Below the pieces are notes generated by a model. The model was not told the DNA's origin. It did no database searches and was given only the letters and a program-made list of their open reading frames with translations. 64,000 nt of DNA from a virus. Shown here in pieces: positions 1 to 7,701 of this stretch. A program made the position numbers and the translations under genes. Position 1 is the stretch's first letter; every line of letters starts with the position of its first letter. Where the stretch lies: the IMG/VR virus record IMGVR_UViG_3300034073_004742, positions 1-64,000 of that record. One strand, 5' to 3'.

Positions 1-1238
1 CATTCTATTTTATCGTTTAGTGAGTATGGTGGATTTTTATATAGTTTAATCAAATTTTGTATATTAGTTTTTCGTTTGATATTAATCTTACTATTAGTCA
101 GTAGATTTTCTAAAACTTGTCCTAGATATTTTTGGTTTATATCTAAAAGATCTAATTCTCTAGATGTTAATTCTGATATTATGTCATATTCAAATAACAT
201 TTGTGTGCGTGACATATGATAATAATCAAGGGCTCCGCATGATATTAGTGCCTTAGCGGCTGTAGAGTTTATTTTATTGAGCAATTTTACTAAGCATCCA
301 TACCATGATATAGAATTAAGATCAATATTTTTGACTATTTCCATAATCTTATCATATACCGAATAACCAACACCTTTTATATCTGTTAAACCAAAATAAA
401 TTTTATCATCGTTTATAGTAAAGTGTTTATTAAGTTTTCTTAAATCTGGAACGCAAACAGTAACATCCATTTCTGTCGCGTTTCTAATTAATTCCTTGAT
501 CTCTTTTTGGGGATCCATCTTGTCTTTTGCGAACTTTAAATATGATGCAAAAAATACTTTGGCAAAGTGTGCTTTTGCATATGCTGATGAATATGCATTC
601 ATAGCATAACTTACAGCGTGGCTCTTGTTAAAGCTATATCTTTGACTTTTTTCTATCCAACCAAAAATTTCTTCGCTCTCGTCTTCTGAGACAATATTAA
701 GTTTTTTAACACCATCTTTGAATTTAACTTTGATTTTTGCCATTTCTTCTGGTTTCTTTTTGCCTATGGCCTTACGAAGCATATCGGCTTCTTGAAGATC
801 GAACCCGGCCACCGCCTGAGCGATTTGCATGGCCTGTTCTTGATAAATCATCTCGCCATAGGTGGATTTTAATGAAGGCTCAAGAGAAGGATGGAAGTAG
901 TCTAATTCTTCTAGACCATTTTTTTTATCTATATAATGATCACTGATGCTTTTGCCTTCCCTATATGCCTCTAATGATCCTGGTCGCATAATACTAATCA
1001 ATGCAGAAAGTTGCTCTATATTTTGTGGTTTAAGTTTTTTGGACATGCTAGAGCCTAGTCTGGATTCTAATTGGAAAACGCCTTTTGTGTTTCCTTGTGC
1101 TATCATATCCCATGTTTTGGAACATTCTAGATTCAGATTTTCTAGTTTGCCATCGAAATCTATTCTAGGAATACCATCCTGGGTATAGTCCAATACCTTA
1201 AATTTACAACCACAATCAAACGTATAGTGATGATTCAT
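1..1238 (-). CDS. dnaE: DNA polymerase III alpha subunit, C-terminal piece (partial at window edge)
   Basis: This is the third piece of a split bacterial-type replicative polymerase; it runs off the left edge. About 412 residues are visible. They carry the GVFQLES finger motif near residue 64, an IMRPGSLEAY segment, and a NKSHAVSYAMNAY stretch near residue 210, all typical of the fingers and linker after the palm in DnaE. The start ATG at 1238 follows the exonuclease stop by five bases and has no clear ribosome-binding site. The N-terminus has a Cys/His cluster (HHYTFDCGCKF) that could bind metal. The palm and PHP parts are encoded separately at 2120-3004 and 3815-5113. I infer that the three polypeptides assemble into one enzyme; splicing cannot be seen. 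Confidence 0.9.
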   Translation of the reverse strand, partial: MNHHYTFDCGCKFKVLDYTQDGIPRIDFDGKLENLNLECSKTWDMIAQGNTKGVFQLESRLGSSMSKKLKPQNIEQLSALISIMRPGSLEAYREGKSISDHYIDKKNGLEELDYFHPSLEPSLKSTYGEMIYQEQAMQIAQAVAGFDLQEADMLRKAIGKKKPEEMAKIKVKFKDGVKKLNIVSEDESEEIFGWIEKSQRYSFNKSHAVSYAMNAYSSAYAKAHFAKVFFASYLKFAKDKMDPQKEIKELIRNATEMDVTVCVPDLRKLNKHFTINDDKIYFGLTDIKGVGYSVYDKIMEIVKNIDLNSISWYGCLVKLLNKINSTAAKALISCGALDYYHMSRTQMLFEYDIISELTSRELDLLDINQKYLGQVLENLLTNSKINIKRKTNIQNLIKLYKNPPYSLNDKIE

Positions 1239-1243
1239 AAATA

Positions 1244-1945
1244 TTATGCGGACGCTGTGGCGAACGCGTTTTTGAATTTAACCTTATTACCAAGATTTCT
1301 ATGAAGTTTCATAAATCTAATAAGAATATCAGCCGTGGCTCTTACATCATTTAGAGCATCATGAGATCCACTATTGCCAAGACCTAGGTATTCTCTAACA
1401 TTATCTAATGTATAGTTTTTTAGTTCATTGTTTCCTTCAAACCAATAAAATATAACATTCATTAGATCTATAACGTCTCGTGGATAAAAAAGAGATGTTC
1501 TTCCCTCCTTATTGACATTATTATATTTCGTACTTAGTCTTTCTATAATTCTAAGATCAAATCTATTTATATTGTATCCAGCAGCTATTGGTGCTGTAAA
1601 ACAAGATTTTTTATCTGATCTTATATGATATTTCTCTAAATAAGATACGAACATTTTCCATCCATTATCCTGATTTTGATAAGATTTCCAGTCCTCTAAT
1701 ATTTTAGTTTTGTCGCATCCTCTAACCTTGGCATGGAAATCAAGAACATCACTATCATCATATATATAATCAGGTTTTTCATCCAATATGGATGGTTTTA
1801 GATTAATATTAAATTCTGAGTCTTTGATAATTTCTAATTTATATGGATCTATTATCAGAGAGGCAATTTGAACGGGGCTACAAAGGTCAGGATTAGCCCC
1901 GTCCGTTTCTAAATCAAATACACAAATTTTTTGTAAATTAGCCAT
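1244..1945 (-). CDS. dnaQ: DnaQ-like DEDDh 3'-5' exonuclease (proofreading)
   Basis: The 233-residue protein has the DEDDh exonuclease motifs: FDLETDG at residues 10-16 (ExoI), GYNINRFDLRI in the middle (ExoII), and SHDALNDVRATAD near residue 195 (ExoIII with the catalytic His). This is the fold of the polymerase III epsilon proofreading subunit and exonuclease I. It lies between the second and third pieces of the polymerase gene, which strongly suggests it proofreads for that polymerase. A GGAGA ribosome-binding site precedes the ATG, and the start overlaps the preceding small gene by eight bases. Its position inside a split dnaE is unusual. Confidence 0.9.
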   Translation of the reverse strand: MANLQKICVFDLETDGANPDLCSPVQIASLIIDPYKLEIIKDSEFNINLKPSILDEKPDYIYDDSDVLDFHAKVRGCDKTKILEDWKSYQNQDNGWKMFVSYLEKYHIRSDKKSCFTAPIAAGYNINRFDLRIIERLSTKYNNVNKEGRTSLFYPRDVIDLMNVIFYWFEGNNELKNYTLDNVREYLGLGNSGSHDALNDVRATADILIRFMKLHRNLGNKVKFKNAFATASA

Positions 1946-2120
1946 TTGTCTCCACTACTGTGTTTCCTGGGAAAAAAGTCCTTTGATTACTATCTGTTGC
2001 AACATGACAATTAACGCTTCTGCAACAGCTTACTCTAACTTCTTGGATCTTAGTATATTCTACATTATTAGCTTTAAAGTTTTCGCCCACAGCAACTTGG
2101 TCTAATGTTTTTGTTAACAT
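1938..2120 (-). CDS. Small conserved phage protein, unknown function
   Basis: A 60-residue protein with a LDQVAVGENF opening, an EYTKI segment and a CCRSVNCHVA core. I recall similar small beta-rich proteins in other phage genomes but know no function. It has a GGAGA ribosome-binding site, and its ATG overlaps the last base of the stop of the second polymerase piece. With the exonuclease gene it forms the unit separating two polymerase fragments. Confidence 0.6.
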   Translation of the reverse strand: MLTKTLDQVAVGENFKANNVEYTKIQEVRVSCCRSVNCHVATDSNQRTFFPGNTVVETNG

Positions 2121-3004
2121 TATAGTTCTCCGTTTTTTAGGTATTCTGATACAGACATGATTTTGTCCAAATAAGCGATACCCAATATATCAAATTTAAT
2201 TAAACCCAAACTCTCTAGATCATTCATCTCCATGCCCGCTATCAGCTGATCATTTCTATTATCATAGACCATAGGACACAGAGATGCAAGATCTTCGGTA
2301 CCTATTATTACACCAGCAGCATGTTTGCTTTGATTAGATTTTGTTCCTTCTAGTCTTATGGCCTGTTCAAATCTTTTTGACAATGGACCAGCCAACGAAC
2401 CATCTTCTGCTATGTAGCACCATTCTTTAAGCTTGTCTGTGTTATTCTCTAAAGCCCATCTAATAATCGAGGCTTCTCCGGTATCTTCTTTCATCTCCTG
2501 AAGTTCGTCGGCTATTTTGGCTTCGTCAGGAATAAATTTGGTAATAGAATTCATTTCTTCGAAAGATATATTACCATATACTCTTAGCACATCTTTTAAC
2601 GCCCCTCTACCTTTCATAGTATTAAAAGTAATCATTTGTGATACTTTGCCATGTCCATATTTACTTTTTATATATTCTAATACTTGTTCTCGTTTATCTA
2701 TTGGAATATCTATATCGATATCTGGCATTTGTATTCTGGCTGGAATGCTTTGTATTGGGCGAGTATTATCAAGCTGATCGACAATACCATATATCCACAT
2801 TATATAACTATTAATAGTGTTTTCGGATAAAATATTTTTATTTACTATTATATGATTATAGTATGATATATTTTCTGGAGCCGAAAGAACTATAGAGCAT
2901 TCATGTTCAAGAAATCTATTATTTTTTTCTTGTTCTAACCTTTCGATTATAGGCTGGCTTTTAATCTCATGTACTAGTCTAGTAAGTGTAGAATTTTTTT
3001 CCAT
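2120..3004 (-). CDS. dnaE: DNA polymerase III alpha subunit, central (catalytic palm) piece
   Basis: The 294-residue product carries the catalytic heart of the polymerase: MPDIDIDIP at residues 93-101 holds the paired metal-binding aspartates, and IKFDILGI near residue 269 holds the third. Between them lie QMITFNTMKGRGALKDV and SKHAAGVIIG, also typical of DnaE. The reading frame is the same as in the N-terminal piece (3815-5113), but a homing endonuclease gene in another frame separates them. No ribosome-binding site is seen before the ATG at 3004, and the frame stays open upstream of it, so the true start or a splice junction is uncertain. The piece stops just after the palm. Confidence 0.88.
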   Translation of the reverse strand: MEKNSTLTRLVHEIKSQPIIERLEQEKNNRFLEHECSIVLSAPENISYYNHIIVNKNILSENTINSYIMWIYGIVDQLDNTRPIQSIPARIQMPDIDIDIPIDKREQVLEYIKSKYGHGKVSQMITFNTMKGRGALKDVLRVYGNISFEEMNSITKFIPDEAKIADELQEMKEDTGEASIIRWALENNTDKLKEWCYIAEDGSLAGPLSKRFEQAIRLEGTKSNQSKHAAGVIIGTEDLASLCPMVYDNRNDQLIAGMEMNDLESLGLIKFDILGIAYLDKIMSVSEYLKNGEL

Positions 3005-3792
3005 TTGTAGTCTATATATAAATGATTGTTTAGTAAATATTTTGCTATAACTTTAATTTCACTCTTGTTTTGGTATATTAACTGATATAAGTCTTTATTT
3101 TTTATTTTTGTTGGTTTTTTATATTTTACAGGCAAGGCTTTGGACACTGTTTCCAAATTTTCTGGAAGATATGAACATATACCTATGTTGTAACCAGTGT
3201 AGACTTTATTTTTATTGGTTTGTTTTTTTATACTAACCCATCCATCAGCATCCCAATATCCTCTTATAAAATCTGGCCATAATAATTGATCCGACGGTAA
3301 TTTTAAAGTACTATACCATGTTTTTCTTGGTATAATACCATATTTTGATATATTATTTGCTAAAATATCGCTAGTAAATTGAAATGTACACCTATTATCG
3401 TAGTCTTTTACTATATTAGAGCCTATTAAAAATTTAGAAAATTTAATCAAATGTTTTTTTGATTCTGACCCCAAGCATAATTGTAGCTTATTACTATCAC
3501 TAATATTTCCATCGCCAAAAATAAAACCAAGCCAATAAGCTGATGCGGCATCTAATTTAGAAAAATCATTTAATAATTTTTTTTTACTATTTTTAGTAAA
3601 TCTAGTTGATTTTGCTAAACAACCACAACTTTTAACATGGTTAATCTTTATCATAGATAGTTTCTTATAACAGATATTGCCGCATTTACATTTACACTTA
3701 GCAATTGTTTCTCCTTTACTATCCGGAACTAAAGTTATTATAGTAAGTAAATTATAACTCTTATTTTTATAGTCTTTTATTTTAGTTTTCAT
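2974..3792 (-). CDS. LAGLIDADG homing endonuclease with N-terminal zinc-finger-like module
   Basis: The protein has two LAGLIDADG-type motifs, YWLGFIFGDGN and RGYWDADGW, the hallmark of a single-chain homing endonuclease. The first 60 residues contain a CKCKCGN...SCGC cluster like the small zinc-binding modules attached to phage homing enzymes. I place the start at the internal ATG at 3792 (272 residues) because GGAGG lies five bases before it; an in-frame ATG at 3825 has no such site. The gene is out of frame with the polymerase pieces on either side and runs 31 bases into the downstream one. It also has a GGTGTATAAA promoter-like element just upstream. Confidence 0.85.
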   Translation of the reverse strand: MKTKIKDYKNKSYNLLTIITLVPDSKGETIAKCKCKCGNICYKKLSMIKINHVKSCGCLAKSTRFTKNSKKKLLNDFSKLDAASAYWLGFIFGDGNISDSNKLQLCLGSESKKHLIKFSKFLIGSNIVKDYDNRCTFQFTSDILANNISKYGIIPRKTWYSTLKLPSDQLLWPDFIRGYWDADGWVSIKKQTNKNKVYTGYNIGICSYLPENLETVSKALPVKYKKPTKIKNKDLYQLIYQNKSEIKVIAKYLLNNHLYIDYKWKKILHLLD

Positions 3793-3813
3793 ATTGCCTC
3801 CGGAATTATACTG

Positions 3814-3823
3814 TTTATACACC
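3814..3823 (-). promoter_or_regulatory. Candidate phage promoter element (GGTGTATAAA)
   Basis: On the minus strand this reads GGTGTATAAA and ends 21 bases before the homing endonuclease start. It matches the element repeated before eight other minus-strand genes. It overlaps the last codons of the first polymerase piece, so the endonuclease could be transcribed separately from its host gene. No mapped transcript supports this. Confidence 0.45.
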
Positions 3824-5113
3824 ATTCTTAAATGTTTGTATAGAAAATTCCGGAAAAGATATGTGTTCTTTTACATTCCTGCCATCGGAATAAAATCTTT
3901 CAAATAGTAATTCATGTTTAATAGGATCTATATCTGTAATACCTATTAAATAAGAAACCAAGCATCCGGCTGCGCTTCCTCGTCCTGGTCCTGCTAACCA
4001 ATTATTATTTTTAACATGTCTTAGTATGTCTTGAACAATTAGAAAATAACTACTAAGCCCAGCATTTTGCAAAACCTGTAGTTCATATTTTATTCTATCA
4101 ACATAAATATCGTGTTGTGATTTGTCAATATTCGGTATAATTCTATTTTTCCAACCTTTTCTACATAATTCTCTTAAATATTCATCCGGAGAGAATCCTT
4201 CGGGACATTCGAATTTAGGCAATTTAGGTGGCGATAGTATATCAAAATTTTCTATTAGACTATCCACAAACAAAGTGTTTTCTATCTCTTCGTCATTATG
4301 AAGAGTTTTCATTTCTTCTGGAGACAGAATGTAGTATTTATCGCTTTTAAAGAAACACTCCATAGGCACAGATTGATTATGAAGCATCTTAGTATTTATA
4401 TCTGATAATGTTGTTTTAAGATTATTACAGAGCAATATTCTTTGATCTATAGCATCGTCCTGTTCACAATAATGAGCATCCGGTGTGCATACCGCTTTTG
4501 TTTTACTTAATTCAGAAATTCTTCTTATTGTATCTGTCAAATATGTTTGTTGTTTTAAATATGCTTGATCAAATAGTTGTGTCTCTAGAAAAAAATTATC
4601 AGTGCCAAATATAGTTTTCATATAGTCCACAAAAGATAATCCATTGTCTATAGCTTTGGATTCGTCGCATAATATCTTATCTGCTAATGTTGATCCCAAA
4701 TGTCCACAAATACCTATAATGTTACCATCCAGTATTTCTGCTAATTTAGCCAGGCTTAAACGCGGCTTATGATAAAAGTAATCGGGTCTGTTAGATTCGG
4801 AAACAATCTTTATTAAGGTTTTCCATCCTTGCAAATTTTTCGCCAATACCAAAAAATGTGATAATGAAGCATTTTCTTTTGTTTGTATACTCGGATCATC
4901 TTCACATATATATAATTCACAACCAAGAATTGGTTTTATATTTTTATTTCGCATTTTCTGATAGAACTGTACAGAGCCGGCGATGTTACCATGATCGGTT
5001 AAGGCACAAGAATTAATGCCTAATTTAGAACATCTATTAGCTATTTGTTCTGGACGATTAAGACCATCCAAAAGACTAAAATGCGAATGACAATGAAGAA
5101 CAGAATAGGTCAT
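3815..5113 (-). CDS. dnaE: DNA polymerase III alpha subunit, N-terminal PHP and palm piece
   Basis: The 432-residue piece starts with a complete PHP domain: HCHSHFS at residues 7-13, LTDHGN near 40, a GCE motif, CGHLGS, and TPDAHYC, the usual metal-binding positions. The start of the polymerase palm follows, with GPGRGSAAGC at residues 375-384 and a LLFERF motif. It ends abruptly after KEHISFPEFS, ahead of the catalytic PDIDID motif, which sits in the next fragment. The ATG has an AGGAT ribosome-binding site and overlaps the upstream nuclease stop by four bases. The break coincides with the homing endonuclease insertion. Confidence 0.92.
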   Translation of the reverse strand: MTYSVLHCHSHFSLLDGLNRPEQIANRCSKLGINSCALTDHGNIAGSVQFYQKMRNKNIKPILGCELYICEDDPSIQTKENASLSHFLVLAKNLQGWKTLIKIVSESNRPDYFYHKPRLSLAKLAEILDGNIIGICGHLGSTLADKILCDESKAIDNGLSFVDYMKTIFGTDNFFLETQLFDQAYLKQQTYLTDTIRRISELSKTKAVCTPDAHYCEQDDAIDQRILLCNNLKTTLSDINTKMLHNQSVPMECFFKSDKYYILSPEEMKTLHNDEEIENTLFVDSLIENFDILSPPKLPKFECPEGFSPDEYLRELCRKGWKNRIIPNIDKSQHDIYVDRIKYELQVLQNAGLSSYFLIVQDILRHVKNNNWLAGPGRGSAAGCLVSYLIGITDIDPIKHELLFERFYSDGRNVKEHISFPEFSIQTFKNGV

Positions 5114-7098
5114 ACTGATCCTGGTGCTTTGTAAGATCCAAAAGAATGATTCGGGTGTTTGTACATACTCATTGTAGCATCGATCCCGTAAAGTTCAAGG
5201 TCGTGCTTGACTTGTTCGCACTTTGTCATGACAGATCCTTTTTGACATATTTGTCCATCTCTATATTCCTCCAAAGGTTGTATGCTAGTATTTTCAAAAG
5301 TGGTTTTACCGAAATGGCATAATTTATTACACATCCATGTTTTATTAAGCTTAGGACGTTTTGTTTTCTTAATAATATCAAATTTTTCTCTCAACATATT
5401 TTCTGTGTCTATGAGATCGCTATCATGAAATACCATAGAAAAAGGACCACCATCATTAATAAAGTAGATAGAAAAAATTACATTTTCAATATGCGGATAT
5501 AATTTTTTAATAGCATAGTGATAAATTTTAAGTTGTGGATCTTTTTCTAACTTTTCTTGGGTTTTTTCTTGACCGGTTGCCCAATCTAGTCTTCGTCCAG
5601 TATTATGTGTTGGAATATAATTTTCTGTACACAGATAAGTATTGTCTGGACTGTCTACGGAAATGCATTGAGTTTTTTGTATAATCGATTCTTCTATTTT
5701 AGAAACTCGTCTAACCCTAGATCTTCCAGATCCCCAATTTACATCCACAAGTTCTTTTTTCCTGTTCAATAGAAAAGGATTAATATCAATTGGACGAAAC
5801 GAAATAGGATATATGATTACGTTTTTTTTGTAATTTGTATCTCTTTTAATACACGCTTGATTCGGTCTTTGCCCAAGGGTTAAAAGTAGGTCTTTAACAT
5901 CGTCGGATAGTTTTTTATTACAAGAAGTAAAGATGGTTTGTTTTCTAATTGGATTTACATTTCCGTCTGTATCCATCAAACCCCTTAGTAAGTCTAGTCT
6001 TTGTTGAAAAGATGCTCTCAAATAAATTTTTGGTATATGTTTATTATTCAATAGGTTTAAAGATTTTAGTATTTTTGTCACATTTAGGATCGATACTGTC
6101 TTATTTTTTGATCTTTTATCATTTTGAATTTTTCCTAGCTCATAACCTCTTGCTTGTATTTCTTCAAAAATTTCGATATCATTGCCACTAATCTCGCAGC
6201 CTCTATTTCTTCCGTCTCCTAACCAGACTCCTAATAGATAAGGATCTATTGGTAGGGATTGTTCATTACATTTTAATGGTTTTGTCACATTAATAGTATC
6301 GCCAATAGCTAGATCCTGTATAGATACCGTTTCACCATTAGATAATTTCCATAAATGCTCATCGTCACAAATTACCGATGTTTTGTCATCAAAAGTTACT
6401 CTGAAACATTTTTTTGTTTTGACTTTTGATTTTCCAACAACGCGACATATATTACCGTATTGATCAAAAACATTACATCCCACATTTATATCTGCAATTG
6501 TTGTCCATCCGTCAAGAGTAGGTAATTTTGTATCTAATGGCAATCCTTTCCAATCTATGACCTCAATAGTATTATCATTGGCCAAAGTTATAAGATCTAT
6601 AGTGCCTTTTAAACCCAAATATCCATCTAGTTTTTGATTATTGATATTATACTCGTATTTAGCCCATGGTTTTTCTATTACCAAATCAAAATGTTGTTCT
6701 GGTCTAAGAATTGTGCGATTTCTAGGATCAAACATACCACCATTAAATTCTATAGCCTTGTAAACCCAATTATAGCAGTCCTTATAATCTTTTAGAGTCC
6801 AAGTATGATGACTATTAGCGGTACTATAATGCTTGTATACTTTTTCTATTATGGTATTAAGACTATAGTCGTTTATATCTATAAGACCTAAGAATTCGTC
6901 GTCGTTTATATGAGATAATTTATCTTGCTGACCTTGTTTGATCATAGCAAGAATTTCTAAAACTTTATGGACTATTGTTCCTTTATCCGCCTTTTGTCCA
7001 CTTGGACCCCTCCATCCTAGTACATATTCAAAAAAAAATTGTTGTTCACACATAGAATGGGCATTATAAGATGAACTACGGAAATAAGTTATAATCAT
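5110..7098 (-). CDS. RecB/Cas4-like PD-(D/E)XK exonuclease interrupted by an intein
   Basis: After removal of a 315-residue intein the host protein is about 347 residues. It has a Cys near residue 17, a conserved GTIVHKVLE helix, GTIDLI near 165 and the nuclease motif EVIDWK/TG, the D-(D/E)xK core of RecB and Cas4 nucleases. The intein sits directly after the catalytic Lys. The C-terminal part has a CNKLC...CQKG...C cluster; with the N-terminal Cys it could hold an iron-sulfur cluster as in Cas4/AddB, but that is inference. Its place next to the polymerase and dNMP kinase suggests a role in phage DNA processing or recombination. Confidence 0.85.
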   Translation of the reverse strand: MIITYFRSSSYNAHSMCEQQFFFEYVLGWRGPSGQKADKGTIVHKVLEILAMIKQGQQDKLSHINDDEFLGLIDINDYSLNTIIEKVYKHYSTANSHHTWTLKDYKDCYNWVYKAIEFNGGMFDPRNRTILRPEQHFDLVIEKPWAKYEYNINNQKLDGYLGLKGTIDLITLANDNTIEVIDWKGLPLDTKLPTLDGWTTIADINVGCNVFDQYGNICRVVGKSKVKTKKCFRVTFDDKTSVICDDEHLWKLSNGETVSIQDLAIGDTINVTKPLKCNEQSLPIDPYLLGVWLGDGRNRGCEISGNDIEIFEEIQARGYELGKIQNDKRSKNKTVSILNVTKILKSLNLLNNKHIPKIYLRASFQQRLDLLRGLMDTDGNVNPIRKQTIFTSCNKKLSDDVKDLLLTLGQRPNQACIKRDTNYKKNVIIYPISFRPIDINPFLLNRKKELVDVNWGSGRSRVRRVSKIEESIIQKTQCISVDSPDNTYLCTENYIPTHNTGRRLDWATGQEKTQEKLEKDPQLKIYHYAIKKLYPHIENVIFSIYFINDGGPFSMVFHDSDLIDTENMLREKFDIIKKTKRPKLNKTWMCNKLCHFGKTTFENTSIQPLEEYRDGQICQKGSVMTKCEQVKHDLELYGIDATMSMYKHPNHSFGSYKAPGSV
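5602..6546 (-). mobile_element. Class 3 intein with LAGLIDADG endonuclease domain
   Basis: The intein spans residues 185-499 of the nuclease. It begins GLPLDTKLPTLDGW, so residue 1 is Gly rather than the usual Cys or Ser, and it ends PTHN before a Thr. The three residues that define class 3 inteins are present: Trp two residues after the block B His (EHLW), Cys at the fourth position of block F (QCISVD) and Thr before HN in block G. The endonuclease motifs YLLGVWLGDG and LLRGLMDTDG lie between the splicing halves. The whole element is in frame, with no stops. Confidence 0.9.
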
Positions 7099-7107
7099 GA
7101 TATCCTA

Positions 7108-7701
7108 TTATTGGGGTATTACATTAAAATGTAACATAAGTTTTTTAAGTTTATCGTATTGCTCTCTAACTGTCATATGTTCATTATTAATGATAGCATT
7201 AAAATTATTCCAATCATATCTACAAGCATCCAATATTGATTCACTAATATGTTCTGATTTGTGTGGATTTCTATTTAGTCGAAATACTATTCCTCCATTA
7301 TTTTTTATAGCTTCTACTTCATTAGGAAATCTACAATCAGAAACTATAACAACTTGAAGTTTACTCTTTTTAATTTTATTGATAAGAGCATTTACCCAAA
7401 CATTATTATTTAATTTTCTAAATAAGTCAGTACCTATTAATTGCATTAAATCTCTAGCTGTTAGTTGCTTATCTTCCCAATAGGCATCAACTAGTTCATT
7501 CTTGTTATGATCTTCGCCATAACACTGAGCATATGATAATCCAAACATATTCATGCATATGTCTTCTTTTAATGGGTCTGCAAAGTTATATATTTCAACA
7601 TCAGAATATCCATTGGATAATAATAATCCTTTTAAAAATTCTGAACAAATAGTTTTGCCAGACTGCTTACGGCCAGAAAATGCTATTATTTTAGTATTCA
7701 T
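7108..7701 (-). CDS. Deoxynucleoside monophosphate kinase
   Basis: A 197-residue P-loop kinase with GRKQSGKT at residues 10-17 and an SDCRFPNEVEAI segment near 120, matching the phage dNMP kinase family (T4 gene 1 type), which phosphorylates dNMPs to dNDPs for phage DNA synthesis. It overlaps the primase stop by one base and continues the nucleotide-supply theme with ribonucleotide reductase and dCMP deaminase upstream in the same strand run. Substrate specificity cannot be read from sequence. Confidence 0.85.
   Translation of the reverse strand: MNTKIIAFSGRKQSGKTICSEFLKGLLLSNGYSDVEIYNFADPLKEDICMNMFGLSYAQCYGEDHNKNELVDAYWEDKQLTARDLMQLIGTDLFRKLNNNVWVNALINKIKKSKLQVVIVSDCRFPNEVEAIKNNGGIVFRLNRNPHKSEHISESILDACRYDWNNFNAIINNEHMTVREQYDKLKKLMLHFNVIPQ

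Follow-up and report, generated by a model that had tools for sequence, protein, structure and literature searches.

Mobile endonucleases usually reside in introns or inteins, which allows repair of the host gene once it has been expressed. In cyanobacteria, the replicative alpha subunit DnaE is split at a different site from those described here and is rejoined covalently by a split intein. The split-intein fractured genes of phages also hold an endonuclease between two gene halves, which are rejoined by protein splicing. Separately encoded pieces can also form active enzymes, as in the homing-endonuclease-split Aeh1 NrdA and the split gp43A/gp43B of phage 25 (PMC2988022). In Aeh1 NrdA/mobE, T4-type gene 60 and 43A-43B, an endonuclease lies in or is associated with an essential phage gene, and two polypeptides with new ends reassemble into an active enzyme (PMC2988022). 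The endonucleases are of the HNH or GIY-YIG type, and the splits are single cases in a ribonucleotide reductase, a topoisomerase or a family B polymerase (PMC2988022). Group 2.2 jumbo phages carry a split, two-piece minimal DNA polymerase III alpha (Pol III alpha), divided into nucleotide-binding and Mg/template-binding parts (PMC7824862). This version lacks the PHP and other domains, is encoded by distant genes and is accompanied by a family B polymerase (PMC7824862).

Intein-free splits are also found in two deposited phage genomes. Cellulophaga phage phiST (NC_020842) encodes Pol III alpha as products of 525 aa and 673 aa, split between the FERF and PDID motifs. The stretch coding both halves (L207, 41629-45229) has no listed feature in the RefSeq annotation. 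In Rossellomorea phage phiT1 (gp20/gp19/gp18, PV767480), the split separates palm from fingers, and a small ORF lies in the gap. Endonuclease-split enzymes and intein-free split Pol III alpha are thus already known or deposited. The novelty of the locus described here is therefore confined to a recurrent cassette with its own conserved domain. A full-text literature search, with most subscription journals outside its reach, turned up no account of a Pol III alpha split by an endonuclease.

We analyzed a window of 64,000 nucleotides that begins at the end of a 77.7-kb virus contig. Its first 5.1 kb encode, in order along the minus strand, polymerase piece 1, a LAGLIDADG endonuclease, piece 2, a 60-aa ORF, an exonuclease and piece 3. 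Piece 1 (3815-5113; 432 aa) holds the PHP domain and the N-terminal palm (GPGRGS...FERF) and ends in a short new tail, HISFPEFSIQTFKNGV (3818-3874). The LAGLIDADG homing endonuclease gene (2974-3792; 272 aa), with GGAGG at 3801-3797, carries the motifs GFIFGDG and GYWDADG and matches Pfam LAGLIDADG_3 (E 3e-8) and phrog_4645 (E 6e-28). Piece 2 (2120-3004; 294 aa) consists of an N-terminal extension of 92 codons, here called ext (2729-3004), and the catalytic palm (PDIDID, KFDILG). Ext is not present in uninterrupted polymerases, and its start overlaps the 3' end of the endonuclease gene by 31 nt. The 60-aa ORF (1938-2120) has no Pfam or PHROG match and is conserved in the same gap of relatives. 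The DnaQ-like 3'-5' proofreading exonuclease gene (1244-1945) matches RNase_T (E 6e-9) and phrog_192, 'DNA polymerase exonuclease subunit' (E 4e-22). Piece 3 (1-1238) comprises the fingers and the HhH part (DNA_pol3_finger, E 9e-48; HHH_6, E 1e-10). Because the window begins at the contig end, this copy is cut at position 1; the full-length piece in relatives is about 540 aa.

The three pieces tile the 1022 positions of TIGR00594 (piece 1, 3-403; piece 2, 393-572; piece 3, 580-910), and Pfam agrees. They therefore represent successive segments of a single Pol III alpha. All three catalytic aspartates (PDIDID and KFDILG), which we take by homology to be E. coli D401, D403 and D555, lie in piece 2. 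GPGRGS lies in piece 1, and the fingers and HhH in piece 3. With a PHP domain, a palm bearing three catalytic aspartates and fingers, the enzyme is of the bacterial (C-family) type. It resembles the group 2.2 jumbo enzyme in being divided, and it differs in that PHP is present and the pieces are adjacent, with no PF00136 match that would point to a family B polymerase. A preliminary description of this DNA had proposed three Pol III alpha ORFs at these coordinates, with the aspartates together in one piece, the proofreading exonuclease inside the second gap and no intein at the piece ends. Our searches bear out each of these points, including an intein-free enzyme in three pieces, as intein models had no match on any piece. 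That account of one gene divided in three is correct as to the pieces; the two breaks are separate events with different origins. It also overstated how rare an intein-free split is, given the two-piece enzymes of jumbo phages, phiST and phiT1. The LAGLIDADG gene in the first gap, the non-polymerase nature of the first ~92 codons of piece 2 and the 60-aa ORF in the second gap are additions to it.

The identical layout was present at ~98-100% identity on eight independent viral contigs (L003-L009, L087) and on a binned MAG contig (L206). These independent contigs, together with the empty-site series below, rule out an assembly or frameshift artefact, which the preliminary description had considered.

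Break 2 separates palm from fingers. Relatives were drawn from two protein scans of viral contigs, giving ~160 loci. In every relative readable on both sides, with the sole exception of L195, break 2 is present. PHP-palm and fingers are separate ORFs, with a small ORF and/or the exonuclease between them. In L195, ext, palm and fingers are fused in a single 820-codon frame. This locus branches within the break-2 clade in the palm+fingers tree, so either L195 was re-fused or several splits occurred. Comparison across the loci shows break 2 to be an old split, shared by a large clade of uncultured phages as their normal condition. For these large phages, the normal replicative polymerase would be a multi-subunit palm/fingers enzyme. 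PhiT1 is split likewise; its gap lacks an exonuclease, break 1 is absent, and it forms a distant branch in the tree.

Piece 3 starts with a CGC-containing N-terminal leader, MNHHYTFDCGCKF. A (F/Y)(D/E)CGC(K/R)F leader is conserved on most fingers pieces (1238-1190 in the window, and in relatives) and is missing in L116 and L195. It is possibly a docking element at break 2 that binds metal. In L024, L026 and L059, the break-2 gap has been invaded by HNH-type endonuclease genes, which lie between the palm and the 60-aa ORF; L064 shows an extra gap of the same size there.

Break 1 lies between FERF and the catalytic PDIDID and is rare among the relatives. Two empty-site loci, L010 and L011, are near-identical to the window outside the insert and carry PHP and palm in one frame. 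In L010, the counterpart of piece 1 continues through the palm as a single 648-codon frame. A single PHP-palm ORF is also found in nearly all other loci (tens). The insert consists of the LAGLIDADG gene, ~90 in-frame codons on the palm (ext) and the short new tail of piece 1. An endonuclease ORF thus stands between the halves of a gene that is uninterrupted in relatives. PhiST is broken between the same motifs, and differs in that its two genes are adjacent, with no endonuclease or ext, a different tail and the fingers still joined to the palm.

The flank next to the insert also differs from the empty site. From ~4081 to 3854, identity to L010 in 60-nt bins drops from 98-100% to 67-87%, against 92-100% for the remainder of piece 1 upstream of this stretch and for the palm starting at PDIDID. 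Alignment to the empty site shows this minus-strand stretch (3854-4081) to be a one-sided co-conversion tract, as expected for homing from a divergent donor. The cassette occurs at the same codon in six lineages (the window type, L057, L100, L101, L116 and L195). In a tree of 35 taxa it occupies five separate tips, among uninterrupted relatives; L100 carries the cassette and was left out of this tree. A shared insertion site across lineages and co-conversion of the flank are the signature of homing. The insertion, the tract and the recurrence show, at the level of sequence, that break 1 is a recent and recurrent homing-endonuclease insertion. The endonuclease is decayed in L100 and L116, where a C-terminal remnant alone is left and ext and tail are still there. 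Identities of ext and palm are 50% and 79% for L003-L057, and 49% and 47% for L100-L101. Over 15 non-independent pairs, ext identity does not follow palm identity (r=0.28), which fits a mobile unit. Aeh1 and the T4-type splits offer no parallel to such a pattern, in which one cassette with a conserved ~90-aa domain is found in several Pol III alpha lineages.

Ext is conserved as protein. In six sequences of 22-33% GC it has 0 stops in 85-92 codons (shuffle P 0.0000-0.0012), against 7-17 stops in the other two forward frames over the region. Its pN/pS is 0.43-0.75, substitutions are in excess at third positions, and each indel in the alignment is a multiple of three. A conserved motif, YYkhIInn...NSYIMWIYDkvD, runs through it. 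Within NSYIMWIYD the amino acids are nearly invariant and third codon positions vary. These patterns show ext to be protein-coding and under protein-level constraint. The piece-1 tail follows a pattern, [IV]xFxE, that recurs in split homologues (read from translations of L003, L057, L100, L101, L116 and L195). It too appears constrained at the protein level, more weakly than ext because it is short.

AlphaFold2, given seven ext sequences, predicted an all-helical domain (pLDDT 80, pTM 0.71). No known family was found for ext in Pfam, PHROGs or PDB sequences, and a Foldseek structure search also returned no relative; isolated Pfam or PHROG matches of single members were not common to the others. 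Among eight weak Foldseek matches, four were Pol III alpha entries (E-values 4-9). Descent of ext from the polymerase's own helix preceding GPGRG, as a diverged duplicate, is unproven. The top-scoring alignment (YYKHIINN...NSYIMWIYDKVD with YVDRIKKE...SGYFLIVQDIVN) has no gaps and is plausible; shuffles reach its score in 7-13% of cases, and hhalign found nothing. A search for ext in cellular genomes gave just one binned phage contig.

We consider it probable that the LAGLIDADG cassette splits the palm active site and that three polypeptides assemble non-covalently into Pol III alpha. The cassette entered a PHP-palm gene that was uninterrupted until then, immediately ahead of PDIDID. Repair of a double-strand break, presumably made by this endonuclease, would have copied in, from a divergent donor, ~230 bp of the upstream flank. 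In place of one peptide bond, piece 1 gains a new tail and piece 2 gains the helical domain ext. The active site may then be completed in trans, with the dNTP-binding loop from piece 1, the catalytic aspartates from piece 2 and the fingers from piece 3. On the simplest reading, the pieces are in use and, with the active site divided among them, have to meet. Ext and the tail probably aid this assembly as a splint or chaperone, which is the weakest step of the scheme. We suggest, tentatively, that the mobile cassette carries in ext and the tail the means of holding the severed enzyme together, and that it passed as one unit from one phage replicative polymerase to another.

If so, a homing endonuclease would have a third way to persist in an essential gene, as neither intron nor intein. 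Several lineages would then live with a replicative polymerase whose active site is permanently severed, also where the endonuclease has decayed. This persistence suggests a non-covalent repair carried by the element itself. The locus would also offer natural split sites in Pol III alpha and a candidate small splint domain.

Alternatively, the pieces could assemble by themselves. Ext and tail would not be splints, and ext would serve the cassette, by translation coupling or by blocking re-cleavage, and be tolerated. The split Pol III alpha enzymes of phiST and phiT1 are without ext, and break 2 of the very enzymes studied here has no comparable domain. Docking was not predicted either. In an AlphaFold2 read-through of L100 pieces 1 and 2, pLDDT was <50 for tail and ext, with no confident placement, so docking of ext is not supported. 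Against self-assembly with a merely tolerated ext, the domain remains open and constrained even where the endonuclease has decayed (L100, L116), and so is not kept for homing. Ext also recurs wherever this cassette splits the palm. We regard this alternative as rather unlikely.

A different proposal is that break 1 is a self-splicing intron, group I or other, with its endonuclease. The mRNA would be spliced and break 2 would be the sole real split. Endonuclease-bearing introns are common in phage polymerase genes, and an in-frame junction, ...HISF|PDIDID..., would give back the normal sequence. However, Rfam gave no match at E up to 1 over positions 1-7200, or at E up to 10 over the insert and L100. 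The nucleotide preceding PDIDID is G, G, T and A in L003, L057, L100 and L101, so the only junction that would restore the sequence lacks a conserved terminal G. Ext folds as RNA no better than shuffles (z +1.05, -1.13) and is conserved as protein, not RNA. The intron would also need to end in a native-like RISM leader. Neither a catalytic RNA core nor a conserved splice boundary of a group I or II intron was found. An intron at break 1 is thus very improbable, and the spliced transcript that the preliminary description had named as a possible refutation is disfavored by the lack of an intron signal and by the coding nature of ext.

It is very improbable that the cassette simply inactivates the polymerase and that the phage depends on another. 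The contigs are incomplete, and a host enzyme could serve. However, the catalytic residues are all intact, and the palm is near-identical to that of the empty-site relatives. Between L003 and L057, PHP, palm and ext all display a purifying substitution pattern. Neither the contig nor any of 12 relatives (<=238 kb), all of them genome fragments, encodes a family A or B DNA polymerase or another intact Pol III alpha.

Protein trans-splicing of pieces 1 and 2 by a very short or atypical split intein is extremely unlikely: although ext holds an invariant Asn-Ser pair, relatives use split inteins in this gene and atypical split inteins with short N-halves are known, the tail has no conserved nucleophile (Asn in L100), ext is predicted all-helical rather than as the beta-rich HINT fold, its end at the polymerase boundary lacks Asn plus nucleophile, and the intein HMM is silent on the window pieces, yet matches L026 and L116. 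In these two loci, the N-terminal intein model found N-halves at GPGRG|SAAG of this same polymerase, and they serve as positive controls. A split intein at either break, including the atypical short-N version, was rejected on the failure of intein models to match.

True inteins do occur nearby and in relatives. In L026 and L034 (3542-6612), a true split intein divides the polymerase at GPGRG|SAAG, and the gap holds a nuclease gene that is Vsr-like by eye. In L116 (3157-9866), Pol III alpha is in four pieces, divided by a split intein, by the break-1 cassette with its decayed endonuclease and by break 2, and the fingers piece additionally holds a contiguous intein. One of its joints is repaired by the split intein and two apparently are not. 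L026, L034 and L116 exactly match the fractured-gene arrangement, whereas break 1 has no intein halves. In the window itself, a PD-(D/E)XK (Cas4/RecB-like) gene at 5110-7098 on the minus strand contains an in-frame LAGLIDADG intein. This intein begins with Gly, not Cys (DWK|GLPLDTKLPT...PTHN|TGRR), and the same non-Cys start is seen in L195. With a Cys in QCISVDSP and the junction PTHN|T, it looks like a class 3-type intein.
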